Positions 24,805 to 46,844 of a stretch of 64,000 nt of DNA are shown here, piece after piece. A program made the position numbers and the translations under genes. Location of the stretch: NCBI GenBank assembly GCA_905221605.1, contig CAJNDS010002390.1:707113-771112 (forward strand), given 5' to 3'. Every line of letters begins with the position of its first letter. Positions within the stretch are counted from its first letter, which is position 1. Source of the DNA: Symbiodinium natans (taxonomy: Eukaryota > Sar > Dinophyceae > Suessiales > Symbiodiniaceae). The notes beneath the pieces are model-generated. The model was given only the letters and a program-made list of their open reading frames with translations, was not told the DNA's origin and ran no database searches.

Positions 24805-25000
24805 CCTGGAGTCTTCAATGTAGTCCCCTTTTTGGGTTAGTTATAGGTAATTCTAGTATACTACCCCAAAAATGTAGTCCCTTTTTGGGTTAGTTACAGG
24901 TAATTCTAGTATACTACCCCAAAAATGTAGTCCATTTTTGGGTTAGTTATAGGTAATTCTAGTATACTACCCCGAAAAAGTACTACATAGGAGCCTCTAG
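24805..25000. mobile_element. MITE-like family C, partial tandem triplication
   Basis: The segment AATGTAGTCC...GGGTTAGTTATAGGTAATTC...AGTATACTACCCC occurs three times head to tail (about 24819, 24871 and 24925), with a full 3' end only after the last. Confidence 0.75.
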
Positions 25001-25685: not shown

Positions 25686-25730
25686 GAGCTTCAGACTGGC
25701 GACGTGGAGAGAGCCCGCGCAGTGTATGAT
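25686..25730 (+). CDS. CRNKL1: CRNKL1-like exon 1 (first recognised)
   Basis: Acceptor agcag|G; encodes ELQTGDVERARAVYD, aligned to the EELEAKDPERTRQVYQ region; GC donor (GAT|GCGCGG). Phase 0. Confidence 0.75.
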
Positions 25731-28700
25731 GCGCGGCCCTCAAGTGATGTTCGGCCTCCAAGGTGGCAACCCTCAACCCGAAACCCTAAGCCCCAAACCC
25801 TAAACCTAAACCCTAAACCCTAATCCCTAAACCCTAAACCCTAAACCCCCGTAGCCCCCTAGCCCCCCCAAGCTCCCCAAACCCTGAACTAGTCTTCAAC
25901 TCAGTCCCCTGGAGCCCCAACCGCCGCGAAGCGCTAATGCCCTAAACCCTCAGCTCCAAACCCGAACCCTGGGCCTTACCTGCAGGCGCTAATGTAGTTC
26001 CTTCTTGGGTCAGTTAAGGGGTTCTAGTAAATACTACCCGAAGAAAGGTACTACATAAGAGCTTTGGGTAAACCCTACACGCACAAGCCCAAAATTGGCA
26101 GGTGGGGTTTTGGAGGAGTAGAGTTTAGGGAGGACTTGGGGTTTAGGAATATGGGAGCTGGTGTGTCTATACGGTGGTGTGTGCTGTTGTGGTATGTTGT
26201 GTTGGGGTTTACGGTTTGGGTTTAGGGTTACTAGCACCATACGCCCTACTTCAGGATAACCTCTACTACTATGAGTCGAGGCTCCTCCGGGCATGTGGAC
26301 CCTCAAGCCCTAAATCCTTTTAAGGCTCATTTTGGGGCCTCCGGTAGTTTAGGCTTTAGGGTGTAGGGTTTAGGGTTTACGGTTTAGGGTTTAAGGGCCG
26401 TGCCTCGCCAGCAGCCGACGCCTGAAGCCTAAAGGTGTTTAGGGTTTAGGGTTTAGGGTTTAGGGTTTAGGGTTTAGGGTGGGTTGTTTTCAGGGCTTAA
26501 GGCTTGATGGAGCTGATGTTGTTTCAGGGCTTTTTGGAGCTGACGAGGTTTCGAGGGCTGGGGCCCAGAATAGGCCCTTGCTCATCTTTTTTTTGGGCCT
26601 TATAATATAGAAGCCCCTTCAGACCAAAAAAAGGGCCTTTCTATTCCTAGGTTACTCTTGGGTCTAGGAGGGTTTGTTTTTATTTTTTTGTTGGGTTGAT
26701 AAGGCTTCTGATACGTTGAGGGCTTGCAGGTCTTATTGGCTTAGAGGGTTGTAGGGCTAAACGGCCCTAAGCCCTGAACCTTGAGAAGCCCAGGTAGAAG
26801 CTCTTGACCGCACGTAAGGTTATATGAAGTAGGGTTTATAATTATTGTTATTGGTGAGTGTATATATGGGGTGTCCTTTTCGGGGTACGAGAAATATAAA
26901 CCCTACTTCATATACTTCTAGCTTATACCTACAAGTGCCAGTGAACTTTCAACTGCAAGAGTCTTCTGCCAATGTTTACGGCAAGCCCTCAATCTCGTGC
27001 CGGAAGCTCATACCTTACTCAACCCCAAAAAGTACCCTACTCCGTGAACCTGAAACCCTGCAACCATAAAACCCTAAGCCCTCAAACTCCAACACCCTGA
27101 AACTTTAAAACCCTGAACCCTGAACCCTGAACCCTAAACCCTAAACCCTGAACCCTGAACCCTGAACCCTGAACCCTGAACCCTGAACCCTAAACCGTAA
27201 ATCAAGTCCGAAGCCGTTCTACTGGAGGCGCTCCTGAAGATGGTCCCGCACAAGCAGTTCTCCTTCGCGAAGGCGCGTGTGGGCTCAGGGTTTAGGTCTC
27301 AGGGCAACACCTTTCGGTTTAGGGTTTAGGGTTTAGGGTTTAGGGTTTAGGGTTTAGGGTTTAGGGTTTAGGGTTTAGGGTTTAGGTGTCCATGTACCCG
27401 CACAGCATATACTTGGGGCCCTAAAGCGTCTACATGGGAACCCCATGAAGGCCCAAGTATAGACGATGCAAGTACATGGACCCTTGGGGTTTCTTGCCCT
27501 TGAAAAGAGGTACATGTAGGTACGGTTTCGGGTTTAGGGTGCAGGGATTAGCGGCACATCTACAACTTCGTAAACAAAGGTGAGGCGGGGGGGAAATTGC
27601 AGAAAAGGGCTCGATGGAGCTGGCAAGCGCAACGTGTGCGGGCCTCCAGAAATCTCCCAATCTGCGAACACGTCGCACCACTGGGGCCCAATAGGATTCA
27701 GGGTTTGGAGTTCCTACGCCTTCAACCCCAAATCCCAAGCCCCGAGCCTTTTAACCTCTAATGTTGACTTCGCATTAATAAACCCCCCCCCCCCCCCCCC
27801 TTCATTGATCAATCTCTCCGGCCAGGGCCTCCTCAATAATATTCGCCTAAATCCTGGTAGGACGTAGTATTAGTTTTAGTATTAGGTAGTAGCACCACGC
27901 CCGTAAAAAAGAAATATTCCGGGCCTGATTTTATAATTGTGGCGGGCTACATTATTGTGTTCTGGCAGCTGGATTTTACAATTGCGGCGGGAATTCCTAA
28001 TGTGAAGTCAACATTAGCCCGAAAACCTAAATCCTACACCTCGAACCGACATTTTCATCCCTACAAGCCTAGGGTTGCAACCCCCATACAAGCACCCCGA
28101 ATCAGCACCACAAACTCTCCCCCCACGTGGGGGGGTGGGGGTGGGGGCGGCCCTAAACCCTAAACCCTAAAGCCTAAACCCTAAACCTTTTTTGGGCGTC
28201 TAAGACTCTGAGGAAACCTGTCTCCGGAGAAGTAAGGGGCCTTAGGCCAGCTGGAAAGCTCTTCATAGGATGCCCAGGTAGTACCCTTATTCCCTTTTTT
28301 GGGGGGTGTAGTCTCCCTTATAAACCGGGGCACCCTTTGTAATCCTTCGCTCCTGAGAATCCCAGCTTCTTCTTCATGAATAGGTATCACTGGGGTTCCA
28401 AGTAGGTTAGATATAGTAGTGCCACCGCCTCGGGGTACCTGGAACCCTACATACTTCAAGTAAAACAACAATAAACCCTCAAGTGCACTCCACACCCCTA
28501 CACCTCGAAAACTCCATAAACCCTAAACCCTAAACCCTAAACCCTAAACCCTAAACCCTAAACCCTAAACCCTAAACCCTGCGAGGTGTGGAAGCTCTAC
28601 GCCGAGTTTGAGGCGAGGTCCCCAGCCTTCACCTCTTCCAGGTCTGAAGGGGCTGCTGTCTTCGTAGGGTTTAGGGTTTAGGGTTTAGGGTTTAGGGTTT

Positions 28701-29484
28701 AGGGTTTAGGGTCTCAAAGGGGGCTGGTTCTTAGGGAATGAGGGAATGAGGTGCCCTATATCCCCTATCTAAATGCCCTTTAAGGGATTCTATAAGGGTG
28801 CCTCATTCCCACATTCACATTCCCTACGAAGAACCCAGGGGGGTCAAGGGGCCCCTGATATTTTTCAGGTGTCGGGTCAACCTAGAGCAACCTTGTACCT
28901 CAAAAAAGGGAACAATAAGCATGATTGAGGTGCACCCTCGCTTTTTCAGGGTGTCTAGGCTACGCTGGGAAGTCTCTGAACCTGAACCCTCCAGACACAA
29001 ATCTCAAACCTGGTTTAGGCTTTAGGACTTTGGGGACTTGCGGGGCTCAAGCTTGAGACGCCGTACTGCGTGGCTTAAAGGGTTTCCTGCCTTCCCCGCT
29101 CGTGCTTAGCTAGGGTGCATCTGGGTCCCGAGGGCAATTTCGCCCTGAAGTCCCCAACAACCAGGTGAGGCAGCTGGAGCTCGATCGCGCGCGGCGGATC
29201 TTCGGCCGCGCCATTGCCGAATGCCAGAAGGTGACTCGGCGCGTACCTTCTTTTGGGCTCCTAACCCCTACACTTCAAAACCCTAAACCCTACGGTCTAT
29301 ATGTTTAGGGCTGTATAGGGCTTGGGGTATGCCGTCCCAGGGCTGAGAACACGGAAGCGCATGCAGTATGCGCGGGCATACATGCACTTAAATGTTAATT
29401 GGTACGTACTTGGCAACTGACGAGACCAAGTATGTATATACATATACACATGAGTATACGTATATGTATATGTAGTTATTTATT

Positions 29485-29524
<40 letters not shown>

Positions 29525-32500
29525 TTGCGCCTACATCTATATCTATGTCTGAGCTGCCCGGGATGTTTTCTGAACCGGAGCATGTAACATCAGGTTCAGA
29601 TTCCCAAGGTACTTCAGGAACTCCAATTCTCAGGAAGACTAACGCGCAGACCGCCAGACCCCGACCCTAGCATGGGTTCAGGGTTCCGGGTTCAGGGTCT
29701 AGGGTTTAGGGTTTAGGATATCCCAAACCCCGCATCCCTGACCCCCTAATCCGTGCCAGGAGCGCATCTTCCTGGACTACGCGGAGCCTTGGTTGATCCA
29801 AATAAAAGCAAAGGCCCGTCTCAAGGCCTGCACCCTAAACCTAAACCCTATATACCCTATGCCCTAAACCCAATGACGAAATCCTCGTCCGAAGCCCTAA
29901 ACCCTAAACCCGAAGCCAAAAAACCCTAAAACCCTCAAGCCCTAAAGCCCTATAAACCCTAAAATCCTAGACCCTAGACCCTATGAACGAGATCCTCGTC
30001 TCAAGCCCTATCATGAGGGCTCCTGGGTTCCTAAGCCAACACCCCTTTTCTTGTAAGGAACGAAGGTTCTACTACGGGATGTGCCCTTAGTAGGGATTCT
30101 AACAGGGGGGTACTATAGTCCCTATTAAGGACTGTGAGCATAAGGGGGAACATCCCCAGTTCTACTAGTACTTCAACTGGGAGTTGCTGGTACATGGATT
30201 TAGGGTTTAGGGTTTAGGGTTTAGGGTTTAGGGTTTAGGGTTTAGGGTTTAGGGTTTAGGGATGACCCTCAGCTCCGGTCAGCCTTGTTCCTCCAAGCCT
30301 CAAAGCCCTAAAGTCTTCTGGTACTGTGCCCATGAACCCTGAACACAAAACCCTACCTAAACCCGAAACCCCACACCCTAAACCCAGCTTCCTACTTCTG
30401 AGCCCTAATCCCTAAACCTCAACCTTTTAAACCCTGAACCCTAAGCCCTAAACCCTAAACCCTAAGCCCTAAGCCCTAAACCCTAAACCCTAAACCCTAA
30501 CCCAAACATATCTCCAGTTCCGGTGACGCCCCGAAATCCGAAGCCCAGGACCTGGAGATGCGCCTGGGAAACATCGACCGCTGCCGCAACCTGGCTGGTT
30601 TGGGGTTTAGGGTTTAGGGTTTAGGGTTTAGGGTTTAGGGTTAGGGGTCAGGGGTCAGGGGTCAGGGTTCAGGGTATAGGGTTTAGGGTTAGGGTTTTTG
30701 GGGTTCAGGGGTTTAGGGTTTAGTTCGGGTTTTAGGGGTTTAGGGGTTTCAGGATTTCAGGATTTCGGTTTGGGGTTTGGGGGTCTCAAGATTTAGGCTT
30801 TAGAGGGTTGGGAGCACATTCAGAGCACGTAGGGGATTTCCTTTGGACTTTGGAGATGTGTGTTTTTCGCTCCCCCCCCCCACCCCAACACCCACATGCA
30901 CTGCAGCCTTTTGAAGTCATAGGGCTTTAGAGTTCAGACTTTTAGTGCCTAGGGTTCTTGAGTTTAGGTGCTTGGGCATAATGGCAATGCCACATGTGCC
31001 CCAAGCGCCGCGGACCAATAGTTGCCCAAACCCCGGAAAGCGCACACTAAGCTTATAAACCCCTACGCCCCTCAAACCTCAACCCCAAGTCGAGTGCTAC
31101 CTGGGGTAGGCGTTCAAGGTCCAAGCCCTCACCCCAAAGCCCGAAACTCGGATCCGGATGGCTTGCAGGGCCTCTGAGGGGTTTAGGGTTTTTAGGGTTA
31201 GGATTAAGGTTTTGGGGGTCGCAGGGTTCAGGGGTTGGGTTTAAGGTTTAGGGTTCAGGGCGTCAGGCTGAAACACTGCAAATCCACACTTCTCCGACCC
31301 CCCAAAACCGATGTGGTAAACCCTAAACCCTAAACCCTAAACCCTAATCTGCTGAGGCACGATCTATGGCAAGTTCCTGGAGGCTCGGGACGCAAGCGGG
31401 AGCCCCCTTCTGAAGCAGAAGCCCTGACTTGGGGGGGAAGTTGGGGCTTTCTCAAGCCCTCGAAGCCCTCAGCCCTATGGACCCTAAACCACGAACTAAG
31501 CCCAAACCCCAAACCCCCAAGCCCCAAGCCCTAAACCCCAAACCCTATAACCCTAAACCTCTGAGCTCTCAGCCCTAAACCCTAAACCCTAAACCCCAAA
31601 CCCTAAACCTCTGAGCCCTCAACCCAGAACTGCAGTGCTGGAGCCGCAGCAGGGCGCAGGGAGACTCCCAGACTGCTCGAGATGCGAGCCTCCAGATCCA
31701 TGAAGCTCACGGGGTTTAGGGTTTAGGGTTCCTGAAGAAACCCAGAACCTGCTTTTTTTAGGTTACCTAAGAATCCTCTCTGGGGTTATGTACAAAGAAC
31801 CTACGGAGTCTCTTTTTTGGGCTTAGAGCCTTAAGCAAGTCTCTTTCCTATGCCCTCTAAGAGCCATAAGCCCAAAACGCGACACCCCCTCACCCAGGAC
31901 CTCAAATCCGAAAGACCCCAAAACCCTAAATCCTAAACCCAAGACCCTAAAGCCCCTGGCCCCACTCTAAAATGCAGCCAAACACCAGACCCCCGCCCTG
32001 TCGATGGACACTGTGGCTTAGGGGTTCGGGCTTTAGGGTTGGGTGTTTGTCGCCACGGCTTGGGGCTTGGATCATCTCGCGGAGGGGGCCGGAGCTGGTC
32101 CGACAAGCCTCGGAGTTCAAATTCAGAGCCTAAACCCCGAATGAAACCCTAAACCTAAACCCCAAACCCTAAACCCTGAACCCTACTACCCTGTAGGGGT
32201 TGAGGCTTTAAACCCTACAGCTCCCAGACCCCCAAAAGCTCCCCCAAACCCCCAAACTCTCTGGAGGGCTTTAGGGCTGTTGGCCCTAACAGACCCCCAA
32301 ACCCCTACAGTAAACTCCCAAACTCTATAGTGGTTTTGGGTTTGGGCAACAGCCCTAAAGCCTCTAGAGTTTTGGGGTTTAGGTTTGGGAGCCCAGCTGT
32401 AGGGGTTTTGGGTTTCGCGGCCCTGCGCCAGGTTCAGCCGCACAACCCCAAAGCATGGACTGTCTTCGTGGACTTGGAGGACCACGACTCGGATTTGAGT

Positions 32501-38500: not shown

Positions 38501-41500
38501 GTACGTGGCACTTCTGGTAAACCTCAAACCCCTAAATCCTGACACAGGAACTGGAACGCAAGCCCTAAACTCCTGAACAGGGTTTAGGGTTCAGGGTTTA
38601 GGGTTTAGGGAGACCCTAAACCCCTGAACCCCATCTAAACCCCCCCCCAAATCCCCCAAGAAACGGAAGGTGGAGAGCCGCAACGAGGAGCGCGCCATGC
38701 TCCTGGAACACCTGCCGGTGTCCCCAGCATTGCTAGCAGGTAAGGGTCTGCAGGGTCTATACTTTGTTGTAGTGGGGTACTTGTGCATTTGTTCAGGGTA
38801 CTTAAGCTCAATAAGGAATAGAATTTTAAATTCTTAATACTATCCCAACCATGAACTAGTATAAGGTTCAGGTTGAGATGCTTGCCCCGGGTTTTCGGGC
38901 TTAGGTGCTTTGCAGGGTTTCATGGGTTTCAGATGCCTCGGTTTTAGGGATCATTCTTCATCTTTCTTCTTTCCGGGGGTTGTGTTTCCCCTGAGCTCTA
39001 TAATCCCTAAACCCTTTGGAGGTCTGTTAAGCAAGAAGGGACACCCTGTCATTCTTAAACGGCACAAGGGTTCAGATGTTTGTCTTAGCGCGTCGAGCGA
39101 CTTGGGGTTTGGGGTTTAGGCCACGGTGTTCCATGGGCTCCCAAGCGACACCCACCCTAACCACCCTAAGAGTCCATGTACCTAACAAGTATATATACTT
39201 GGGCCCTGAAGCTACTATAGGGGAACCCCTTTAAGTCCCTAAACCCTAAACCGTAGATAAAACTCAAGTTGCCTGACCGGGTGGTCCTTCAAACTTGTGA
39301 CCTTAAGCAAGGGTTGAGGGTTTAGGGTTTAGGGTTTAGGGTATCTCCATAGGCCTTTTTGGACATTTTCTATTTTCCCTTGTTGGGTGTAAGAGGATCG
39401 TATTCTGGAATATGTTTCAGAGGGTTTTAGTTGGCCATCCTCGTCATTGTGAGACACAGTCCTCATCCTCAGTTGCAATGGGGTTATAGGCACGTGTCCT
39501 AACCTGATCAACCACAACCACGGCTCCCAGCCATTTTCCTCGCCGTCTGACAGCGTGTCCTCCACTAGAGTTATAGCTGCAGCTACAGTTGCCCAACCGT
39601 CAAGCAGAAGCCCCGCATGCCTCAAATCCCCCTTTTCCCACTAACATCCTAACCCCGGAAAGCCTAAAACCTTGCTTCAGAAAACCCTAGAAGCTCTACG
39701 CCTAGACCCTGAACCCTAACCCCCTAAACCCTCAAATGCCCTAAGCCCTGCTACAGTCAGGCTCAAGCTCGAGAAGGAGCATGGCGATGACGACTCGGTG
39801 AAGGCTCTCGGGTTCTCTCCTGCTTGGAGAGTGTCGAGTCTAAAAGTATGGCACAGGTTTGCTTTAGGTTTTAGGGTTTAGGGTTTAGGGCTTGAGGGTT
39901 TAGGGTTTAGGGTTTAGGGTTTAGGGTTTAGGGTTTAGGGTCACAGAGCTTCAAGGGTTGGATGTGGGGGTCGTAGCGCAACGCACGCTTTGCATCGAAA
40001 TGCGCAGCCTGCGTGAGCCTGACAGCACCGGAGCCCTAAAGCCCCCAGGCCAAACCCTAAACCCTAAACCCTAAACCCTAAACCCTAAACCCTAAACCCT
40101 AAACCCTAAACCCTAAACCCTAAACCCTAAACCCTAACCTTGAGCTTCGGTTTTTGACAGCTGCATGATTCAGTCCACGAGTGGTCGTTGACCAGACTCG
40201 TGAGTCTCCTTGGTGCCGTTGAACTCGACGGACCATGCCATGCTGGAGACTCCCCAAAGGTTAGGGTTTAGGGTTTAGGGTTTAGGGTTTAGGGTTTAGG
40301 GTTTAGGGTTTAGGGTTTAGGGTTCAGGGTTCAGGGTTCAGGGTTCAGGGTTTAGGGTTTGGGGTTTAGGGCCCCAAACACTGAAGCCAATTTAGGGTTT
40401 GGGGTTTGGGTTCGGGCCCCAAAGCCCGAACCCCCTGATGGAGAAAGCGCAAGTGAAACTTCACATTTTCACACGGGCACACGCTATTTTGCTTCATGTC
40501 GTCCAGAAGCTCGCGAACGAAATGAACTTGCCTCGTCCTTTCGCGAGCATTTCTTCTACTATCTTCCGATGTAGTCCCTAAGCTCTAAGCCCCAAACCCT
40601 AATCAATATGAGTGGAGTACGACCTTGTCATCTTTATGACTTAGTGAGGTGCAGACCCTCTACACCCCTACGAGACCCTGCTAAACCCTACAATAGATCT
40701 GTGCCTTACAAAAGTGTACGGAGGTTTCCGACAATAGGGGTACCCTTTGTGGGGTCCCTTCAAGGGGGTTCTAGTCTAGTTGGGGTTTCAAAGGGGTACC
40801 TCAACTTGGGAAATACCCAATATACCTATTTAAGGCACGCTTGTATTTTGTTGAGGGTCTAGAGGTTCCTCCAGGTAAGCCACCCTAAACACAACCAACT
40901 TGGGAGGAGCTGCTGCCGTTGAGGGTTGAGGGCTTGAAGTTCTGCCCGGGGTTGGGGTGCAGGGCTTAAAGTTCCTCCGATCCAAGCAACTTCAGTGCTG
41001 TTTGCAGACCTTTCCTCACCCGTGCTTTTGGTAGGTTTGTGCTGGCTACAAGGAAAGGGACCCGCAAAACAGGTTTTCATTTTGGGTTTGCAAACTATAG
41101 GCCTTAAACCCTAAGCTCTGCAGATTGAAGTGTGCCCAGTACTGAGATCTGTCCCCAAAGCTTACTTGCCGAGCCCAAACCCGCACATTCTTATACAGAC
41201 GCAAGTTTTGCTTGCTGGAATTCCAAGTAGCAAGCTGAAAGGTTGTCGAGGGGAAATCAGCTACTTCATGCCCCCATAGAAAACAGTTGAAGGGATTATA
41301 TAGGACACCCGAAACGCCCAAATGCACTACTCAGAGCCAGTAATGTTGGTCCAGGTTTAGCGGGGGCCCCCCTCACTTTAAAGAGGCAAGCCGCTGGGCT
41401 CTTTAAAGACAGGTCTCCGGGCATCGTAAGACTATTTCGTGTCTGGCGCGCCTTAGAAATCAGTTACCGGGGCCGGTCTCCCCAGACCGTGTAAAGAGGA

Positions 41501-44500
41501 CACCAATCGGCTTCGACTTTTCTGGGCGGAGGGGGGGGGAAAGGTCACATTACAAAAGCAAGTCCCACTTTCAACATCAAGCCAACAAGCTGCAACTCTC
41601 CTCGGAACCTATCCTTGGTAGCCCAGGGTACCCCTTGCCATTTTGTTGGGGTTCTGGGCTCCCTTGTACAGACACCAACCAAAGAAAGGGTTTAGGGTTT
41701 AGGGTTTCGGGTATGGGGTTTAACATTACAAGATGGATACTGGGACAATGGGCATCGCGAAGCAGAGAAGAAAGACCCAGCGCCAGGCCGCCGAGAAGAA
41801 GCAGCCAGAGCGTGTGAAGAAGAGGACCTTGTCTTGGTTCAAGACCTGCAACCCTAAACCCTGAGCCCCTAAACCCCTAAACCCTCAACTCTAACCCCAA
41901 AACCCTACCCCAAACCCTAAACCTTAAGCCCTAAACCCTGTGCCTCAGGTTTCTGGGGAGAGCTTCGGGAACCCGAAAGCCTGAAGCCTCCCCCCCCCCC
42001 CCCCCCCCCCCCTCCCATAACCCAAAGCCTTCGAAAAGGCACCCAAGCCACCGAACCCCAACCCCAGGCCCTAAACCCTAAACCCTAAAAACTAAACCCT
42101 AAACCCTAAACCCTAAACCCCAGGCCCTAAACCCTAAACCATAAACCCTACCTGAAGGCTCTAATGTAGTTCCTTCTTGGTTTAGTTATTGGGGATCTTA
42201 GTATACTACCCAAAAAAAGGTACTACACAGGAGCCTTTGGGTAAATTCTGGCTCTCGGGTGCATGTGTGTGGCTTGGGGTGCAGTGTTGGGGACTCGAAG
42301 TCTTGAGATCAGGGTGCTACCGCTGGGCACCGTATAGTTTACTTCACCAAATTGGGGTTTATGGGGTTTGGGGTTTAGGGTTTCAGGGGGTGCTTCCCCC
42401 AAAATCGTAAGATCCATATTATAGGAACCCCCCCCCCAAGAAAGAACTACCCAAAAAGACTGGTACCCCTGTGTTCGGAAAGCTCCTATGCGTGGTACCA
42501 CGCAATCCTGCAACAAGCGCCCTGCCTCGGCCAGGAAAGCCATCCAAGGCGAAGATGGGCAGGAGGCCTTTGAGGCCTTCGGGGTTTTGGGTCTTGGGGT
42601 TTGGGGTTTGGGGTTTAATTAGGGTTTAGGGCTTAGAGTTAATAATGTTTTCGAGGTTCTAAGTAGGGTTAGAAGTATGACAATTGCAAATGTAACCTTA
42701 TTTCGGGCACTGACAACCCTACTTGCCGCTGTCCATGAACCTCCAAGTACCTGTGATTTACACGAGCCGCGCCACATAGGTGTGGAGTAAATCAGAGTTT
42801 TGGTTTATAAAAATTGGGGGGGGGGGTACCTTCTGGAGGTTCAAAGGTGCTTGTAACCCCAATTATATCTGTACTTCTAACCTACTTGGAGAACTTAGGG
42901 GGTTGAAGAAAGTACAGTTATAATTGGAGTTATATGTACCCTTGAACCTCCAAGTAGGGTCTGTGGGATTCAGCGGGGCTTAGGGTTTCGAGTCTGGAGT
43001 TTGGGGTCTGGGGGTTTAGGGTTTAGGGTTTAGGGTTTAGGGTTTAGGGTTTAGGGTTTTACAGTAGGGTTTAGGATTTCGGGTGTGTTTAGGGTTTCGG
43101 GTCTAGCATTTGGGGCTAGAGCGCTGTGTCAGGTTCCCGGGGTCGAGGTCGTAAACCCTGCACCCCCTAAACCCTAATAATTTACTGGGCTACTTAGGCA
43201 GGTACTGGGCTAATGGAGGTAGTATAGGTGTCGGAATAATTACAAATATTATTCCCTTATGGTCCCTTTGTAAATGTACTATAATACCCCCCCCCCCCAA
43301 AAAAAAAAAACTATTCTAATGATTAAGGGAACAGTCGTTGAAAGGAGGGGTATAAGAACCCCATTCAGTTTCTGATTGCAGATATACCATACGTGTAACC
43401 CTACTTACAGGCACCCACCTCCAAGTATCCGCCTCTGGAACTTCGAGTTCTGTTTTTTGAGACCAGCCACCTCGCATGCAGACATGTAGCCCTACTACCT
43501 AAGCCCCTAAACCCGAACCCTTCAACCCTTGTAGCATTGAACCGCCCTTTTTCAGGAGTACATGGATTACAACTTCCCAGAGGACTGCGTGAATTAGCTG
43601 AGGGCTCGGGGTTTTGGCTGTGTAGGGCTTTGCATGAGGCCTTGGACCCTTGAACCTTGAACCCTAAACCCTAAATCCTAAACCCTAAACCCTAAACCCT
43701 AAACCCGACTTGTACAGCGCGTTTGTCGAAAGACGAAGACCGGCTCTCCGGCTTGGGGGGCCGGAATAAACAAACGTGCTGGAAAATGTGCACTGGAAAT
43801 ATGCACTATTGCAGGAACGACCTTTGCCCACTACACCAATCCTAATTCAACAGACAACTGTGTGTATATATATATATATATATGATTATGCTACAGATGT
43901 GCAGTTTTCGTAAACCCTAAACCCAAACCCTGCACCCTAAACCCTAAAGCTTAAACCCTAGACCGCAAATTCACCTCCTTGGGCGTCAGAAGAGAGGGTT
44001 TAGGGTTTAGGGTTTAGGGTTTAGGGTTTAGGGTTTAGGGTTTAGGGTCAATAGTCTTGACCAGATGGTAACCAGATGGTATCGCGCCGGGGTTTCGGGT
44101 TTAGGGTTACCAATGCCTGGTTTTGGGTACGGCTTGGGTTCAAAACCCTCAACCCCAAACCCAAAATTTCTTGAATTGTGGTGGAATCTTCGTCCTAAAC
44201 CCGAACGCCGCGAGGACAGCTCAGAGACGCAGAATCTCAAGATTCTCGAGATGGCGAGGATGTGGAAGAAGAGAAGCCTGACCAAGGTTCATGGTCCCTT
44301 GGGGCTCTAGTTCTTAGGGGTTCTGTAAGGACAGGAGAACTTGGCGTGGCATGGCCCTAAACCCTAATACTTCCATGGGTTCCCATACCAACCCCCTCTG
44401 TACTAGCCCCTCTAGGTTCCCCGCCCTTTACAAGAATCCTTTATTAGGCTTGACTATCCTTAAATAGGGCGGGGTAGCATAGTGGGGGGGGGGGGGGGGG

Positions 44501-46844
44501 GGGGGTAGTAGGGGAACCCATGATACCTAGGCCCCAAAGCTGCACTTTCGGAGTACCCTAGTCACAAGGCTCCGTCTGATAGTAAAAGGCCCCCCCCCCT
44601 CCCCCCCAATGGCGACCGTCATGTAGGAAACCCCCCAAAACCCTAAACCCTAAACCCTAAACCCTAAACCCTAAACCCGAAACCCTAAACCCTAAACCCT
44701 AAACCCTAAACCCTAAACCCTAAACCCTAAACCCTAAACCCTAAACCCTAAGACAGGACACTGGCAGGATGGTAGCACTCGGTTACCTACCTCCCTTGAG
44801 CAGTTGTTTCGTTCATATGACAATATGAAAGTAGGGTTTATACTTCTTGTACCCCAAAAAAGACACCAAGCATATACACTCACCAATATTAAAAGGAACC
44901 TTATATACACTCACCAAAAACAGTAGTATAACCCCTACTTCATATACTTCCAGTGTCAGAAGAGTTCTGTTACTAGCACCCTTAAGAACTTAATGCTTAG
45001 GGCCCCGGACATACAGGGTAAGTCCAAAGGGTGCTTTAGCACGATTGTTTTTGTTTTTCATGGCCCTGCTAAGAGGAGTGTGGCGGACTCCCTCCCTTAA
45101 GGACATTGCGACGGCTCTTCGTTCCAAGCCCCTCCTAGCTCACTCGTAAACCTTACGGTGACGATTTTTAATGAGTGGAGGGCGGCCAACCTGCCACGGC
45201 AAGGGGGGTAGCATAAAAGACCAGTTCAAATCCGCGTGTTTTCAATCTCCACCCCTCCACCCCTCCACCCCCTCCGCCCACTCCACCCCTCCACCCCTCC
45301 ACCCCTCCACCCCTCCACCCCCCTCCACCCCTCCACCCCCCCACCCCTCCACCCCTCTCCACCCTCTCCACCCCTCTCCACCCCTCTCCACCCCTCCGCT
45401 CCGACACCCCTCCACCTCCACCCCTCCGCCCCTCCACCCCTCCGCCCCTCCCCTCCCCCCCACCCCTCCACCCCTCCTACACCCCAGAGGTGGGGAGGTG
45501 GAGGGGGGTGGAGGGGTGGGGAGGTGGAGGGGTGGAGGGGTGGGGAGGGTGTTCGGATGTTTAAAATGCTGGGCGGCCTGACGCCGCGCTCTATGGAGGT
45601 AGTATGAAATACCTGTTTTTTTTTTATGTCCGGGTGTTTAAAAACCGGCACCGTAAATTGGGATGTTGCCCCTTATACTAGCAGTCCTTAATCGGGAGTA
45701 CAGTACCCCCTCATTATAACCCCGAATCAGGACAGTTAGTATACAGCAAGCTCCACAAAGTTGGAACATCCATACCCCAAAAGGTATCCTAAAGAGTATC
45801 CCAGCTCTAATCATCCTTAAAGCCATGCTCCAACTTTCTGGAGTTTACTATAAGGGGGAACATCCCAAACCTTTTACGCCAGTACCCTAAACCCTAAACC
45901 CTAAACCCTAAACCCTAAACCCTAAACCCTAAACCCTAAACCCTAAACCCTAAACCCTAAACCCTAAACCCTAAACCCATATGCCTTAATTTCGTAAAAC
46001 CTTCGACAAAGTGTCCGAGGAAAGCTGGAGGCCTCGCAGCCGCCGCCCGAGTCGGCGTAGCTCCCGATGTGCGGAGGCAGTCCCAAAGGGTTTAGGGTTT
46101 AGGGAAAAGGGTTTAGGGTTTAGGGTTTAGGGTTAGGGTTTAGGGTTTAGGGTTTAGGGTTTAGGGTTTAGGGTTTAGGGTTTAGGGTTTAGGGTTTAGG
46201 GTTTAGGGTTTAGGGTCCATACACTCCAAACCCTTGGGCTTGAGGGCTTGAAAGTATAGGGTGCTCCTGCATTGAATGGCCTCAAACCAGAACTGTCAGG
46301 GAGCTTCAAATAAACCCCTAGCCCTAAGGGTCCATTTACCTAGAGTAGAAGCCACAAAGTTGGAAACTCAATAGCCTCAATCCCTAAAAATCCCAGCATC
46401 CCAGCACTAGCACACCCTGACTGCATACATTCTACCCCCCCCCCCAGAAACCCTTATAAGGAATGCTTAGGGGTTTAGGGTTTAGGGTTTAGGGTTTAGG
46501 GTTTAGGGTTTGCATATAAACACCACAAACCCATTAAACACTTCACCCAATCGGCTGAGGATCGCAGGTGATGGTCCATGTACCTGTTATAGTATATACT
46601 TGGGCCCTACAGAAGTTCTCAAATAGTAGCTTTAGGGACCAAGTATGTAATTACTACAGTAGCGCCGTCCGTTGAAGTGTACCGATTTCAGGGTCGAGGG
46701 GTTAGGCTTTAAGCTTTAAGGGTTTTGGGTTTAGGGTTGCTGTCTTAGCTGCTATAAACTTTAAGCCCAGCACCCCTGAGCCTTGTCCAGGAATTCGTGC
46801 GATTCCGGCTGCGTTGGGGCCGCCCGGACGACCCGGACGCGTAA
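25686..46844 (+). CDS. CRNKL1: Crooked-neck-like HAT-repeat splicing factor (CRNKL1/Clf1/Syf3), at least 20 micro-exons
   Basis: Twenty exons of 24-66 nt, in order on the + strand, splice into a protein collinear with the C-terminal half of CRNKL1/Clf1, a scaffold of HAT (half-a-TPR) repeats in the spliceosome's Prp19-associated (NTC) complex. Landmarks: ALLKMVPHKQFSFAKAR, VWKLYAEFEAR, DLEMRLGNIDRCRNL, PHNPKAWTVFVDLE, ERLDMPELVWKRYIDLE, HHVRVYIAYSDFE, RNEERAMLLEHL, KKQPERVKKR, EYMDYNFPED, TQNLKILEMARMWKK. The introns are GT-AG (about 7), GC-AG (about 9) and GA-AG (4), and most acceptors are AG|G. Joined exons often match the length of the human protein to the residue. The N-terminal HAT repeats (roughly the first 430 residues) were not found upstream. 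The gene is therefore a truncated paralogue, part of a longer transcript, or has N-terminal exons too divergent to see. No frameshift or stop was found in the joined frame. Confidence 0.85.
25990..26073. mobile_element. MITE-like element, family C
   Basis: TAATGTAGTTCCTTCTTGGG ... AAATACTACCCG ... GGTACTACATAAGAG. Confidence 0.7.
26572..26666. mobile_element. MITE-like element, family E2
   Basis: GCCCTTGCTCATCTTTTTTT ... AAAAAAAGGGCC ... CTAGGTTACTCTTGGGTC. Confidence 0.55.
26820..26922. mobile_element. MITE-like element, family J
   Basis: TATATGAAGTAGGGTTTATA ... AATATAAACCCTACTTCATA: an almost perfect terminal inverted repeat of over 18 bp, about 100 bp long. Confidence 0.85.
27108..27198. 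repeat. CCCTGAA/CCCTAAA array (C strand)
   Basis: Blocks of three to six CCCTGAA units alternate with CCCTAAA; it ends about 30 bp before exon 2. Confidence 0.9.
27228..27278 (+). CDS. CRNKL1: CRNKL1-like exon 2
   Basis: Acceptor actggag|G; encodes ALLKMVPHKQFSFAKAR (family ASLELIPHKKFTFAK); GT donor (GCGCGT|GTGGGC). Joined length equals the human protein here. Starting at 27207 would add seven residues. Confidence 0.85.
27318..27385. repeat. TTTAGGG array (G strand)
   Basis: Nine to ten perfect units, 40 bp after the donor of exon 2. Confidence 0.95.
27386..27486. mobile_element. MITE-like element, family D
   Basis: GTCCATGTACCCGCACAGCA ... TGGGAACCCCATGAAGGCCC ... GCAAGTACATGGACCCTT; terminal repeats inverted. 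It begins at the array edge. Confidence 0.75.
27782..27800. repeat. C homopolymer
   Basis: A run of about 18 C. Confidence 0.9.
28515..28580. repeat. CCCTAAA array (C strand)
   Basis: Nine perfect units ending 5 bp before the acceptor of exon 3. Confidence 0.95.
28586..28617 (+). CDS. CRNKL1: CRNKL1-like exon 3
   Basis: 32 nt; acceptor gcgag|G; encodes VWKLYAEFEA plus AG; GT donor (GCGAG|GTCCCC), phase 2. HAT motif W-x-x-Y-A-x-F-E. Confidence 0.9.
28667..28712. repeat. TTTAGGG array (G strand)
   Basis: Six to seven units, 50 bp after the exon 3 donor. Confidence 0.95.
28730..28838. mobile_element. MITE-like element, family G
   Basis: GGTTCTTAGGGAATGAGGGA ... CATTCCCTACGAAGAACC; terminal inverted repeat GGTTCTTxGGGAATG. 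Confidence 0.75.
29170..29230 (+). CDS. CRNKL1: CRNKL1-like exon 4
   Basis: Acceptor ggtgag|G; encodes (R)QLELDRARRIFGRAIAECQK, aligned to RQKNLPLARRALGTSIGKCP; GT donor (AAG|GTGACT). The earlier AG at 29163-29164 would give an in-frame TGA. Confidence 0.9.
29440..29532. repeat. AT-rich microsatellite, (TA)n
   Basis: TATGTATA, TTTATTTA and a (TA) run of over 15 units. Confidence 0.9.
29760..29783 (+). CDS. CRNKL1: CRNKL1-like exon 5, 24-nt micro-exon
   Basis: Acceptor gtgccag|G; encodes ERIFLDYA (family NKLFKVYI); GA donor (TACGCG|GAGCCT). Phase 0 on both sides. The exact spacing with exon 6 supports the GA donor. Confidence 0.75.
30076..30157. mobile_element. MITE-like element, family B
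   Basis: GGGATGTGCCCTTAG ... AGGACTGTGAGCATAAGGGG ... GAACATCCCC. Confidence 0.6.
30198..30262. repeat. TTTAGGG array (G strand)
   Basis: Nine perfect units in the middle of intron 5. Confidence 0.95.
30430..30502. repeat. CCCTAAA/CCCTAAG array (C strand)
   Basis: About ten units ending 47 bp before exon 6. Confidence 0.9.
30549..30597 (+). CDS. CRNKL1: CRNKL1-like exon 6
   Basis: Acceptor gcccag|G; encodes DLEMRLGNIDRCRNLAG (family ELELQLREFDRCRKLY); donor GTTTGGGG, so the intron opens with a telomere-like unit. Phase 1, matching the two-base start of exon 7. Confidence 0.9.
30598..30700. repeat. TTTAGGG array with GGTCAGG variants (G strand)
   Basis: Starts exactly at the donor of exon 6; six heptamers then GGGGTCA units. 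Confidence 0.95.
31318..31348. repeat. CCCTAAA array (C strand)
   Basis: Four units ending about 9 bp before exon 7; it is the partner of the G array at the other end of the same intron. Confidence 0.95.
31357..31393 (+). CDS. CRNKL1: CRNKL1-like exon 7
   Basis: Acceptor gctgag|GC; encodes TIYGKFLEAR (family LYEKFLEFG); GA donor (CTCGG|GACGCA) inferred because it gives the exact human spacing to exon 8. Confidence 0.75.
31733..31835. mobile_element. MITE-like element, family I
   Basis: TTTTTTTAGGTTACCTAAGA ... AGAACCTACGGAGTCTCTTT; relative of 14505. Confidence 0.5.
32438..32479 (+). CDS. CRNKL1: CRNKL1-like exon 8
   Basis: Acceptor gttcag|C; encodes PHNPKAWTVFVDLE (family PENCTSWIKFAELE, identical length); GA donor (GAG|GACCAC). 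The earlier AG at 32429-32430 would add two residues. Confidence 0.8.
32980..33102. repeat. CCCCAAA then CCCTAAA array (C strand)
   Basis: About 17 units ending 20 bp before exon 9. Confidence 0.95.
33123..33152 (+). CDS. CRNKL1: CRNKL1-like exon 9, 30-nt micro-exon
   Basis: Acceptor gccacag|G; encodes DSVGEVERAR (family TILGDIDRAR, same length); GC donor (CGT|GCCGCT). Confidence 0.8.
33788..33814 (+). CDS. CRNKL1: CRNKL1-like exon 10, 27-nt micro-exon
   Basis: Acceptor tagacag|G; encodes ALCNLAITQ (family AIYELAISQ); GC donor (CAG|GCCGGTTTAGGG), with the TTTAGGG array four bases into the intron. Confidence 0.85.
33819..33905. repeat. TTTAGGG/CTTAGGG array (G strand)
   Basis: Starts at the donor of exon 10; mixed TTTAGGG, CTTAGGG and TTTGGGG. 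Confidence 0.9.
34509..34672. mobile_element. MITE-like family C interrupted by a CCCTAAA array
   Basis: Element ends (GGGCTTTGCCCAAAGGCTCC ... GAGCTACATTAGAGCCTTCA) are intact. Between TACTAGAATCC and CCCCTATAACTAAACC lies an array of about eight CCCTAAA units that other copies lack. Confidence 0.8.
34735..34855. repeat. CCCTAAA array (C strand)
   Basis: About 17 units ending 10 bp before exon 11; pairs with the G array at 33819 across the same intron. Confidence 0.95.
34865..34915 (+). CDS. CRNKL1: CRNKL1-like exon 11
   Basis: Acceptor gttcag|G; encodes ERLDMPELVWKRYIDLE (family PRLDMPEVLWKSYIDFE), the strongest single match; GC donor (GAG|GCGCGC). Confidence 0.95.
34945..34970. repeat. 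Short TTTAGGG array (G strand)
   Basis: Three to four units, 30 bp after the donor of exon 11. Confidence 0.9.
35087..35234. mobile_element. MITE-like element, family K
   Basis: GGGTTCCCCTACTGCCCCCC ... GGGGGGTAGTAAGGGAACCC, a long inverted repeat with an inner AATTAAAGCTATTTAAGG / TTAACTAAGGCTATT part. Related copy at 44378. Confidence 0.8.
35808..35945. repeat. CCCTAAA array with CCCTCAA and CCTTAAA units (C strand)
   Basis: About 19 units ending 18 bp before exon 12. CCCTAAGCCTTAAA occurs twice as a higher-order unit. Confidence 0.95.
35964..35996 (+). CDS. CRNKL1: CRNKL1-like exon 12, 33-nt micro-exon
   Basis: Acceptor gccgag|G; encodes VSQNETDNARK (family IEQEETERTRN, exactly the same length); GC donor (AAG|GCCGAC). 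Confidence 0.8.
36332..36402. repeat. TTTAGGG array (G strand)
   Basis: About ten units, here nearer the 3' end of intron 12, against the trend. Confidence 0.95.
36461..36572. repeat. (CT)n, (CTTT)n and (TA)n microsatellites
   Basis: Pyrimidine tract 36461-36535 followed by (TA)n, directly before exon 13; it may serve as its polypyrimidine tract. Confidence 0.9.
36593..36658 (+). CDS. CRNKL1: CRNKL1-like exon 13
   Basis: Acceptor atgcag|G; encodes VWQQLVSKSHHVRV then YIAYSDFE (family [22 protein letters not shown], same length); GC donor (GAG|GCCACC). Confidence 0.95.
36755..36843. repeat. TTTAGGG array (G strand)
   Basis: Twelve units, about 100 bp into intron 13. Confidence 0.95.
37066..37152. 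mobile_element. MITE-like element, family H
   Basis: AAAATAGGGGACCCTAATAT ... AAGGTACCCCTAATTTCGGA. Confidence 0.5.
37515..37559 (+). CDS. CRNKL1: CRNKL1-like exon 14
   Basis: Acceptor ttgcag|G; encodes AVTCQSMPKAREALE (family ..SLTKCRQIYEE); GC donor (GAG|GCAGGT), or GT at 37564 out of phase with exon 15. TTTCTTTGCAG is a good pyrimidine tract. Confidence 0.75.
37592..37668. repeat. TTTAGGG array flanked by near-direct repeats
   Basis: GCCACTTCAAGGCGGGCTTT (37570) before and GCCACTTAAGGCGGGTTTTC (37669) after the array; a third copy starts at 37702. Confidence 0.9.
37950..38310 (+). CDS. Hypothetical open frame inside CRNKL1-like intron 14
   Basis: About 120 codons, including YRSLDRYTGNEIRLEHLYYN and VPRGRDVIGVTAVLVLPR. 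No array inside. Possibly a remnant of an inserted element; family not recognised. Confidence 0.3.
38661..38713 (+). CDS. CRNKL1: CRNKL1-like exon 15
   Basis: Acceptor cccaag|A (or ggaag|G at 38670); encodes KRKVESRNEERAMLLEH plus CT (family EEKEERLMLLES); GC donor (CT|GCCGGT), phase 2, fitting exon 16's one-base start. Confidence 0.8.
39168..39238. mobile_element. MITE-like fragment, family D
   Basis: AGAGTCCATGTACCTAACAA ... GGGCCCTGAAGCTACTATAG; the 3' end is lost into CCCTAAA. Confidence 0.6.
39761..39797 (+). CDS. CRNKL1: CRNKL1-like exon 16
   Basis: Acceptor agtcag|G; encodes (L)LKLEKEHGDDDS (family WRSFEEEFGTASD, same length); GT donor (TCG|GTGAAG). Confidence 0.75.
39892..39942. repeat. 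TTTAGGG array (G strand)
   Basis: Seven units, about 95 bp after the exon 16 donor. Confidence 0.95.
40052..40136. repeat. CCCTAAA array (C strand)
   Basis: Twelve perfect units. Confidence 0.95.
40260..40370. repeat. TTTAGGG then TTCAGGG array (G strand)
   Basis: Nine TTTAGGG followed by four GGGTTCA units and back. Confidence 0.95.
40600..41600. other. Long array-free stretch of intron 16, nothing certain
   Basis: Contains a family-H-like piece at about 40725-40810 and short open frames on both strands without motifs. Confidence 0.4.
41620..41750. mobile_element. MITE-like family E interrupted by a TTTAGGG array
   Basis: GGTAGCCCAGGGTACCCCTT ... ACAAGATGGATACTGGG are the family ends; GGGTTTAGGGTTTAGGG stands where other copies have GGGTACCCTTATT. 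Confidence 0.7.
41781..41824 (+). CDS. CRNKL1: CRNKL1-like exon 17
   Basis: Acceptor gacccag|C; encodes RQAAEKKQPERVKK plus AG (family ..DKLMPEKVKKR); GA donor (AAGAG|GACCTT), phase 2. Confidence 0.8.
41988..42012. repeat. C homopolymer
   Basis: More than 20 C in a row. Confidence 0.9.
42062..42140. repeat. CCCTAAA array with a 23-bp direct repeat at its ends
   Basis: CCCCAGGCCCTAAACCCTAA at 42062 and again at 42118. Confidence 0.8.
42151..42246. mobile_element. MITE-like element, family C
   Basis: CTGAAGGCTCTAATGTAGTT ... AGTATACTACCC ... GGTACTACACAGGAGCC. Confidence 0.75.
42400..42485. mobile_element. MITE-like element, family H
   Basis: CCCCAAAATCGTAAGATCCA ... TGTGTTCGGAAAGCTCC; degenerate. 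Confidence 0.4.
42535..42574 (+). CDS. CRNKL1: CRNKL1-like exon 18
   Basis: Acceptor ggccag|G; encodes KAIQGEDGQEAFE (family RKVQTDDGSDAGWE); GC donor (GAG|GCCTTC). Its one-base start completes the Arg codon from exon 17. Confidence 0.8.
42651..42749. mobile_element. MITE-like element, family A
   Basis: GAGGTTCTAAGTAGGGTTAG ... TGTCCATGAACCTCCAAGTA; 5' end degenerate. Confidence 0.5.
42831..42956. mobile_element. MITE-like element, family A
   Basis: TTCTGGAGGTTCAAAGGTGC ... GTACCCTTGAACCTCCAAGT, good inverted ends. Confidence 0.7.
43018..43062. repeat. TTTAGGG array (G strand)
   Basis: Six units in intron 18. Confidence 0.9.
43222..43345. mobile_element. MITE-like element, family F (reverse)
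   Basis: GTCGGAATAATTACAAATAT ... TTATGGTCCC ... CTATTCTAATGATTAAG, with a C/A homopolymer inside. Confidence 0.65.
43556..43588 (+). CDS. CRNKL1: CRNKL1-like exon 19, 33-nt micro-exon
   Basis: Acceptor tttttcag|G; encodes EYMDYNFPEDC (family EYFDYIFPEDA); GT donor (TGC|GTGAAT). Read-through would meet TAG at 43595. Confidence 0.9.
43865..43885. repeat. (TA)n microsatellite
   Basis: About nine TA units. Confidence 0.85.
43995..44048. repeat. TTTAGGG array (G strand)
   Basis: Seven perfect units. Confidence 0.95.
44227..44286 (+). CDS. CRNKL1: CRNKL1-like exon 20
   Basis: Acceptor ctcagag|A; encodes TQNLKILEMARMWKKRSLTK (family QPNLKLLAMAKLWKKQQQ); GT donor (AAG|GTTCAT), phase 0. Confidence 0.9.
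44378..44522. mobile_element. MITE-like element, family K
   Basis: GGGTTCCCATACCAACCCCC ... GGGTAGTAGGGGAACCCATG, with a poly-G run of about 20 in the right arm. Confidence 0.7.
44638..44752. repeat. CCCTAAA array (C strand)
   Basis: Sixteen units with one CCCGAAA. Confidence 0.95.
44815..44950. mobile_element. MITE-like element, family J
   Basis: ATATGACAATATGAAAGTAG ... CCCCTACTTCATATACTT; carries the shared inner GTACCCCAAAAAAGACACC. Confidence 0.7.
45246..45550. repeat. Inverted CCCCTCCA satellite
   Basis: About 230 bp of CCCCTCCAC units followed by about 60 bp of the complementary GTGGAGGGG units, turning at about 45480-45492 (ACCCCAGAGGTGGGGAGG). Long Pro- and Gly-rich frames here are artefacts. 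Confidence 0.95.
45658..45869. mobile_element. MITE-like element, family B, enlarged
   Basis: TTGGGATGTTGCCCCTTATA ... CTATAAGGGGGAACATCCCA, about 210 bp instead of 100, with an internal GTTGGAACATCC suggesting a nested or duplicated end. Confidence 0.7.
45884..45978. repeat. CCCTAAA array (C strand)
   Basis: Thirteen perfect units, about 40 bp before the exon at 46020. Confidence 0.95.
46020..46076 (+). CDS. CRNKL1: Probable CRNKL1-like penultimate exon
   Basis: Acceptor gtccgag|G; encodes ESWRPRSRRPSRRSSRCAE, Ser/Arg-rich; GC donor (GAG|GCAGTC), phase 0 on both sides. No family counterpart, since the C-terminal tails of this family vary. Confidence 0.45.
46087..46215. repeat. TTTAGGG array (G strand)
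   Basis: Seventeen units with one short unit, starting 11 bp after the exon. Confidence 0.95.
46572..46662. mobile_element. MITE-like element, family D
   Basis: GGTCCATGTACCTGTTATAG ... TAGCTTTAGGGACCAAGTAT. Confidence 0.6.
46791..46844 (+). CDS. CRNKL1: Probable last exon of the CRNKL1-like gene, with stop
   Basis: Acceptor ttgtccag|G; encodes EFVRFRLRWGRPDDPDA then TAA (46842-46844). In phase with 46020-46076. Acidic end recalls the DPDK/DEPES tail of relatives, but the match is not decisive. Confidence 0.5.
   Translation, partial: EFVRFRLRWGRPDDPDA

Follow-up and report, generated by a model that had tools for sequence, protein, structure and literature searches.

Telomere-type arrays in opposite orientations near the two ends of introns in a CRNKL1-like gene of Symbiodinium natans, and their order across the genome

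Why should the introns of a dinoflagellate gene carry telomere-type repeats near both ends, and why should the repeats at the two ends tend to point in opposite directions? The question is raised by a stretch of 64,000 nucleotides from S. natans contig CAJNDS010002390.1, the whole of which was analysed and is called the window below. It holds 139 array clusters of at least three exact units, 74 of TTTAGGG (G arrays) and 65 of CCCTAAA (C arrays), and the canonical telomere unit is present in 138 of its 149 seven-base TRF rows. PMC11453091 names TTTAGGG as the telomere unit of dinoflagellates, and the window arrays fit interstitial telomeric sequence, the unit being taken from dinoflagellates generally. 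Other repeats were also noticed in the window: a run of about 350 bases, nearly all G with some A (7405-7755), a 53-bp tandem repeat of 3.1 copies (24817-24982), which an intronic sequence at about 42160-42215 resembles by eye, and a long CCTCCAC-type pyrimidine repeat with several frames open (45217-45561), within the last CRNKL1 intron. A search of the window with Rfam gave 0 matches at gathering scores.

The exons of the CRNKL1-like gene were set from the homologs P0001, P0002 and P0013 together with the splice consensus, and the arrays played no part. By these means 21 exons and 20 introns were fixed between 25686 and 46060; joined, the exons keep the frame to the stop codon and encode the C-terminal half of CRNKL1. 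A previous version of the join, differing in small details, matched solved 'Crooked neck-like protein 1' chains (E 9.5e-78), and a query built from the window exons matched the deposited 'CRNKL1 [Symbiodinium natans]' (P0013, 164 aa). After filtering, tblastn left ten pieces of this protein collinear in the window (34862-45097), nine of them at 87.5-100% identity and four of these at 100%; the first piece shows 74% identity, and its alignment overruns the exon end. For the N-terminal half of CRNKL1, tblastn gave no convincing match. The exons and the arrays beside them are as follows, in window coordinates.

25686..25730, + strand, CRNKL1-like exon A (homology to P0032, in-frame join)
27109..27196, + strand, variant C-type array (AACCCTG)12.6, upstream of exon B (TRF)
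27228..27272, + strand, exon B (P0001, gene model)
27318..27380, + strand, TTTAGGG array after exon B donor (array scan)
28521..28576, + strand, CCCTAAA array before exon C acceptor (array scan)
28586..28612, + strand, exon C (P0001, gene model)
28670..28711, + strand, TTTAGGG array after exon C (array scan)
29165..29230, + strand, exon D (P0001, gene model)
29231..29759, + strand, intron between D and D2, arms in reverse (C on the donor side, G on the acceptor side), sole GT donor
29760..29783, + strand, exon D2 (P0001, gene model)
30446..30494, + strand, CCCTAAA array before exon E (array scan)
30549..30585, + strand, exon E (P0001, gene model)
30606..30640, + strand, TTTAGGG array after exon E (array scan)
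31321..31341, + strand, CCCTAAA array before exon F (array scan)
31357..31382, + strand, exon F (P0001, gene model)
32432..32479, + strand, exon F2 (P0001, gene model)
33033..33102, + strand, CCCTAAA array before exon G (array scan)
33123..33152, + strand, exon G (in-frame join with P0001 residues)
33198..33225, + strand, TTTAGGG array after exon G (array scan)
33788..33814, + strand, exon H (in-frame join with P0001 residues)
33820..33895, + strand, TTTAGGG array after exon H (array scan)
34734..34851, + strand, CCCTAAA array before exon I (array scan)
34865..34915, + strand, exon I (S. natans P0013, gene model)
34951..34971, + strand, TTTAGGG array after exon I (array scan)
35810..35935, + strand, CCCTAAA array before exon J (array scan)
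35964..35996, + strand, exon J (P0013)
36593..36658, + strand, exon K (P0013)
36741..36843, + strand, TTTAGGG array after exon K, then two CCCTAAA units within 4 bp (head-to-head)
37461..37502, + strand, CCCTAAA array before exon L (array scan)
37515..37580, + strand, exon L (P0013)
37593..37669, + strand, TTTAGGG array after exon L (array scan)
38670..38713, + strand, exon L2 (P0013, gene model)
39761..39803, + strand, exon L3 (P0013 residues, in-frame join; absent from the listed tblastn pieces)
41787..41824, + strand, exon M (P0013, gene model)
42535..42574, + strand, exon N (P0013, gene model)
43556..43582, + strand, exon O (P0013)
44215..44272, + strand, exon P (P0013, P0001, gene model)
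45885..45975, + strand, CCCTAAA array before terminal exon Q
46020..46060, + strand, terminal exon Q with stop (P0001, in-frame join)
46091..46215, + strand, TTTAGGG array after terminal exon Q
12070..12138, + strand, PPR exon in the opposite order (G-exon-C), an exception (profile HMM match)

The median intron length is 918.5 bp (n = 20), and 16 of the 20 introns lie in phase 0. Donors are GC in 14 cases, GA in 5 and GT in 1, and all 20 acceptors are AG|G; by these sites the introns are of the dinoflagellate spliceosomal type, a test that depends in part on the gene model since the splice consensus guided the exact boundaries. The usage is consistent with the S. natans table of PMC10666404 (GC 58%, GA 18.4%, GT 23.6%, AGG 97.1%), a source that also gives 0.76 Gbp, 35,270 genes and 2,855 scaffolds for this species, with 15.7 exons per gene and a mean exon of 106 bp.

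Several further observations concern the gene and its surroundings. The deposited P0013 seems to begin inside the intron between H and I (MEGEA, 34488-34502) and to end within the last intron (RSVADSLP, 45074-45097), not in terminal exon Q, so that the deposited model looks truncated and mis-ended. PPR exons lie upstream of the CRNKL1 C-terminal half (window 1-25730), and a eukprot protein, P0032, joins PPR and CRNKL1 in one chain; the neighbourhood or the fusion may therefore be conserved. The PROCN domain of a PRPF8 homolog (locus L051) is a single uninterrupted open frame of 922 aa, whereas the CRNKL1 C-terminal half has 20 introns, so the intron load is strongly unequal between spliceosome genes. 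For this reason the PROCN family was dropped as an intron-rich comparison gene.

Array orientation at the CRNKL1 splice sites was scored with exact arrays of at least 14 perfect bp and, separately, with degenerate arrays. Of the nearest exact arrays within 60 bp in the 20 introns, those at donors were 7 TTTAGGG and 3 CCCTAAA, those at acceptors 8 CCCTAAA and 2 TTTAGGG; degenerate arrays gave G to C ratios of 12:4 at donors and C to G ratios of 14:2 at acceptors. Among 5000 rotations of the arrays within each intron, an excess as large as that observed arose 28 times at the donor end and 0 times at the acceptor end with exact arrays; the corresponding counts for degenerate arrays were 6 and 0 of 5000. 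Near its acceptors this gene carries mostly C-strand arrays and near its donors mostly G-strand arrays, the bias at the acceptor end being the stronger. The proposal of the initial annotation that oriented arrays are intronic and lie near splice sites beyond chance is borne out by array rotation in these 20 introns.

The resulting C-exon-G order at CRNKL1 exons is a tendency, not a rule. By sign, 15 of 20 introns lean this way and 5 the opposite way with exact arrays, 17 and 3 with degenerate ones. A G array near the donor and a C array near the acceptor, both within 60 bp, occur together in 4 of 20 introns (exact) or 10 of 20 (degenerate), and one intron, 29231-29759, has the reverse; exceptions had been anticipated and they are real. 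Six introns had been singled out earlier as clear cases. Five stood with exact arrays, TTTAGGG beginning 17-102 bp past the donor and CCCTAAA ending 5-23 bp before the acceptor: 27273-28585 (43 and 5 bp), 30586-31356 (17 and 9 bp), 33815-34864 (26 and 10 bp), 34916-35963 (31 and 23 bp) and 36659-37514 (102 and 11 bp). The sixth, 42575-43555, conforms only once degenerate arrays are admitted (3/26); the closest exact ones are both TTTAGGG, 437 and 496 bp off. The intron coordinates given earlier were mostly right, two donors having shifted (27273, not 27279; 30586, not 30598).

Viewed from the arrays, the same order emerges. Six of the eight short C-G intervals (80-200 bp) in CRNKL1 contain a homology-defined exon, against one in nine intervals of other orders (G-C 0/3, C-C 1/4, G-G 0/2), and terminal exon Q lies inside one further short C-G interval. 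Base composition follows suit: AG is scarcer over the final 62 nt of introns than in their interiors (0.025-0.050 vs 0.071 per step) and G is enriched after donors (0.31-0.35 vs 0.25; 19 introns), figures in which the arrays themselves are counted and which therefore restate the bias and prove no cause.

The PPR exons were located with a profile of 28 PPR proteins, those with an organism name being from dinoflagellates. Eight HMM matches of at least 9 bits were obtained, all in the window, and 20 nine-kb stretches from elsewhere gave no match at 9 bits or more. The C-exon-G order that had been claimed for many PPR exons is seen in part: the nearest upstream array is C in 5 of 8 and the nearest downstream array G in 6 of 8, and the remainder depart from it. 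The G-exon-C order noted around 12068 was confirmed, PPR exon 12070-12138 being fully reversed. The homology-fixed exons behind the orientation result are those of one gene and these eight PPR matches.

C-then-G reads the same on both strands, so a test of the order needs no gene annotation. Patterns were counted over 759,417,921 bases in 2543 contigs, overlapping starts included and with no exon choice. The pattern CCCTAAACCCTAAA then TTTAGGGTTTAGGG at 90-120 bp occurred 134,342 times genome-wide and the converse order 47,188 times, so that C-then-G order at exon-like spacing, claimed from the window, recurs in genome-wide excess. Expressed as sites, these counts correspond to about 74,000 and 19,000, as extrapolated from 100 matches listed for each on one contig; in a common span of 313 kb, 43 C-then-G and 14 G-then-C sites were found among the matches listed. 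C-then-G at 300-330 bp was counted 143,516 times genome-wide.

Local data came from the window, 30 kinase-domain loci and 20 stretches of 9 kb on 20 contigs, each stretch chosen for a copy of a dispersed repeat and the 20 therefore not a random sample. Array density per 10 kb was 21.7 in the window, 12.9 in the stretches and 2.9 in the kinase loci. Adjacent arrays 80-160 bp apart were C-G and G-C in 36 and 4 cases in the stretches, 21 and 8 in the window, and 6 and 0 in the kinase loci. At 80-200 bp, the window had 23 C-G pairs (permutation mean 11.6, maximum 21 of 2000) and 10 G-C (mean 11.5), the stretches 38 (mean 18.0, maximum 32) and 8 (mean 18.1), and the kinase loci 6 (mean 3.0, maximum 7) and 1. 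By distance, in the local data, the C-G excess peaks at 60-240 bp, is lower to 600 bp and is absent at 600-900 bp; as it also appears at 300-330 bp (C-then-G vs G-then-C, 26 vs 9 in the window and 33 vs 27 in the stretches), the short-range excess is a peak and not the sole excess. Below 60 bp in the window, G-then-C exceeds C-then-G by 16 starts to 1, from two places.

That the genome-wide C-G sites are exons was shown only in part. On one contig, C1, 13 of 17 listed C-G sites had AG|G with a reading frame behind it that stayed open as far as the sequence was displayed (shuffled control: mean 8.7 of 17, with 13 or more in 30 of 1000). Codon usage gave C-G segments a median coding signal of 7.9 vs 6.1 for other gaps (p 7e-4) and 7.2 for shuffled C-G segments, and only 15% of C-G segments passed the 90th percentile of the background; the coding signal outside CRNKL1 is weak. 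Rule-based exon calls on C-G segments were inconsistent in strand and were set aside as evidence.

We tentatively favour, with somewhat under even confidence, an explanation in which telomere-type TTTAGGG/CCCTAAA arrays have spread through S. natans introns and been sorted by splicing constraints at each end separately. Beside an acceptor, a CCCTAAA array would be harmless or useful, having no AG and 57% pyrimidine, and its repeated CTAAAC may resemble a branch-point site. Each TTTAGGG unit in that position would form a competing TTTAG|G acceptor and would tend to be purged, because 97% of S. natans acceptors are AGG. Beside donors that are mostly GC or GA, the G-rich TTTAGGG array might be tolerated, and its G runs may aid donor recognition. 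Avoidance of extra acceptors explains the acceptor end and not the donor end, as G arrays carry possible GT donors; the donor-side step requires an enhancer role that is unproved. Sorting of each end by itself is supported by the lack of partner-specific pairing and the non-significant excess of complementarity described below. A local scan of splice words was without acceptor bias (TTGCAGG preceded by C in 2 cases and by G in 2; TGCAGG in 4 and 9), a scan confounded by G-rich context. Around 22 copies of the dispersed repeat there was no clear array order (G-G 7, G-C 6, C-G 4, C-C 3, two one-sided).

The mechanism put forward in the initial annotation, a stem between donor-side UUUAGGG and acceptor-side CCCUAAA of one intron that draws the splice sites together, appears unlikely. 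Arms suitably placed for it lie within 60 bp in 4 of 20 introns with exact arrays and in 10 with degenerate ones, the reversed intron 29231-29759 is still complementary, and PMC7789003 proposes hairpins that join exon boundaries for the introners of Amoebophrya. However, a preference of arrays for their own partner was not found in 19 introns: the mean duplex energy was -84.0 kcal/mol for the ends of the same intron and -86.9 kcal/mol for ends of different introns, and in 68% of 5000 shuffles the exchanged partners equalled or bettered the true ones. First-first duplexes (-89.9) were as strong as own-partner ones, so duplex energy alone says little. Complementary nearest arms occurred in 11 of 20 introns vs 10.2 expected with exact arrays (p 0.53) and in 14 vs 11.6 with degenerate arrays (p 0.23), neither a significant excess; with 20 introns to go by, the orientation of one arm does not clearly depend on that of the other, though a modest partner effect could go unnoticed in a sample of this size. 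A looser test of a donor G and an acceptor C within 120 bp (19 introns; counts 7, 3, 2, 7) leans towards dependence, with an odds ratio of 8.2 and p 0.07. Complementarity exists, but no result clearly marks the two ends of one intron as partners; pairing that bridges the intron is not supported.

The nearer partner of an array lies across the exon, and pairing there would loop the exon out. In a second, likewise improbable explanation, the arrays would pair across each micro-exon with a loop of about 100 nt, leading either to structural exon definition or to exon skipping and circular RNA. Seven exons have a C array no more than 120 bp upstream and a G array no more than 120 bp downstream. In these, 90-137 nt (median 99) separate the two arrays across the exon, and the next C cluster downstream of the donor-side G array lies at a median of 680 nt. 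Duplexes across exons were the strongest class (-99.7 kcal/mol). In a first set of folds, the donor-side array paired across the exon in six of seven; for exons C, L and Q, whose next C cluster lies past the next exon or the gene end, the folded pieces held no competing downstream cluster, so only four folds are informative (E, G and I pair across the exon and H does not, 3/4). A second set folded each of 19 exons with both whole introns and scored pairing of the 150 nt nearest the splice sites. Across-exon pairing was predicted to exceed that across either intron in 10 of 19, a result that tells against the bridging stem; an intron was predicted to win in 5 of 19, in that stem's favour, and neither won in 4. 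Paired bases numbered 561 across exons, 286 across downstream introns and 112 across upstream introns. Minimum-energy folds are, however, blind to co-transcriptional timing and proteins. Inverted repeats flanking an exon tend to favour back-splicing, which should be harmful at such a scale. A still bolder version, to which we give a smaller chance, would have each micro-exon marked by a telomere-type hairpin (CCCUAAA before, UUUAGGG after) that compensates for weak GC/GA donors in tens of thousands of exons. Exon looping, if true, would be the more surprising outcome.

Creation of the introns by transposon-like elements with telomere-like terminal inverted repeats, the introner-like origin also suggested earlier, has a similarly low probability. 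In its favour, S. microadriaticum introners carry 4-bp TSDs and TIRs according to PMC9860276, simple inverted repeats at both intron ends are suggested in PMC10666404 to be prevalent in free-living dinoflagellates, and 16 of the 20 introns are in phase 0. The hallmarks are nevertheless weak or absent. Introns masked for exact telomere units share no core, giving 6 short matches (24-102 bp) among 19 and none end to end, and the array distance to the splice site is variable. Direct repeats at the boundaries average 3.63 bases vs 3.24 for shuffled partners (p 0.047, 19 introns) and are mostly the AG|G consensus. The short C-G segments are not copies of one another, with one C-G/C-G match among 74 and 33 matches between C-G and other gap types. 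Where introner inverted repeats are defined as 8-20 nt within about 30 nt of both intron ends, G..C arms within 30 bp at both ends occur in 2 of 20 introns (exact) or 7 of 20 (degenerate).

Less probable still is a relic of telomere healing and fusion, in which telomerase added caps to either side of an intragenic break, the capped ends were rejoined, and the TTTAGGG..CCCTAAA insert was then spliced out. G-then-C within introns is the head-to-head order expected from such repair, and mammalian short interstitial telomeres arise at repaired breaks according to PMC7215372. Two head-to-head junctions are present in the window, and in both the C arm has two exact units: one abutting at 11793/11794, the other 3 bp apart at 36843/36847, inside the intron between K and L. 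Such junctions are rare, however, and 0 of 101 G-C neighbours with at least three units each lie under 40 bp apart. An artefact of assembly or of exon choice near arrays is highly improbable: repeats are hard to assemble and the 20 stretches are not random, but the deposited P0013 maps to the window exon by exon, the exons were set by homology and splice consensus and not by arrays, and the whole-genome counts involve no exon choice.

For the preferred explanation, arrays sorted at each intron end separately, the source of the arrays would probably be telomerase or telomeric-RNA insertion at breaks, with local tandem expansion afterwards. For mammals, short internal telomere arrays have been proposed to stem from break repair by telomerase (PMC7215372), and by analogy we infer it for S. 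natans. The variant (AACCCTG) array beside exon B has grown to 12.6 copies, so in-place expansion does occur. The dispersed repeat around whose 22 copies array order was scored proved to be a MITE-like element, some 250-260 bp long and bounded by terminal inverted repeats (TAATGTTGACTTC...GAAGTCAACATTA); it was observed at window 27758-28016 and in loci L001, L003, L005, L006, L009, L011, L012, L017, L019 and L020. In several loci it lies inside or against a telomere-type array, apparently at TA, having inserted into pre-existing arrays.

In searches of open-licence literature, we found no published description of telomere arrays at intron ends. The introners described for Amoebophrya (PMC7789003), Prorocentrum cordatum (PMC10666404) and S. 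microadriaticum (PMC9860276) are alike in having inverted repeats near both ends, non-canonical splice sites and large numbers. In S. natans, by contrast, the arms are tandem arrays of telomere type that vary in length and in distance, and the gene shows no shared core, convincing target-site duplication or own-partner matching. Mammalian short interstitial telomeric sequences are likewise internal arrays of telomere units, many of them intronic; as reported in PMC7215372, they fit random insertion, with 31% of the human ones in introns, whereas in S. natans the arrays keep an order around the exons of CRNKL1 and, as judged by spacing, across the genome. In Polarella glacialis one repeat is also widespread, (TTG)n simple repeats making up about 19% of the genome, but the unit differs, and oriented placement at exons is not described in the available part of PMC7245778.

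Inverted Alu pairs flank exons and are linked to circular RNA. They resemble the present case in placing complementary repeats on both sides of an exon; the S. natans arrays differ in being of telomere type, about 100 nt apart around micro-exons and characterised at the DNA level.

These results carry a warning that inverted repeats near intron ends need not imply introners. They also bear on how exons are recognised in dinoflagellates with mostly GC and GA donors. If the bias holds on transcript-mapped introns, S. natans would offer a vast natural experiment in which splicing filters or recruits repeat insertions, and the very large number of candidate sites makes the question of a splicing filter directly testable.
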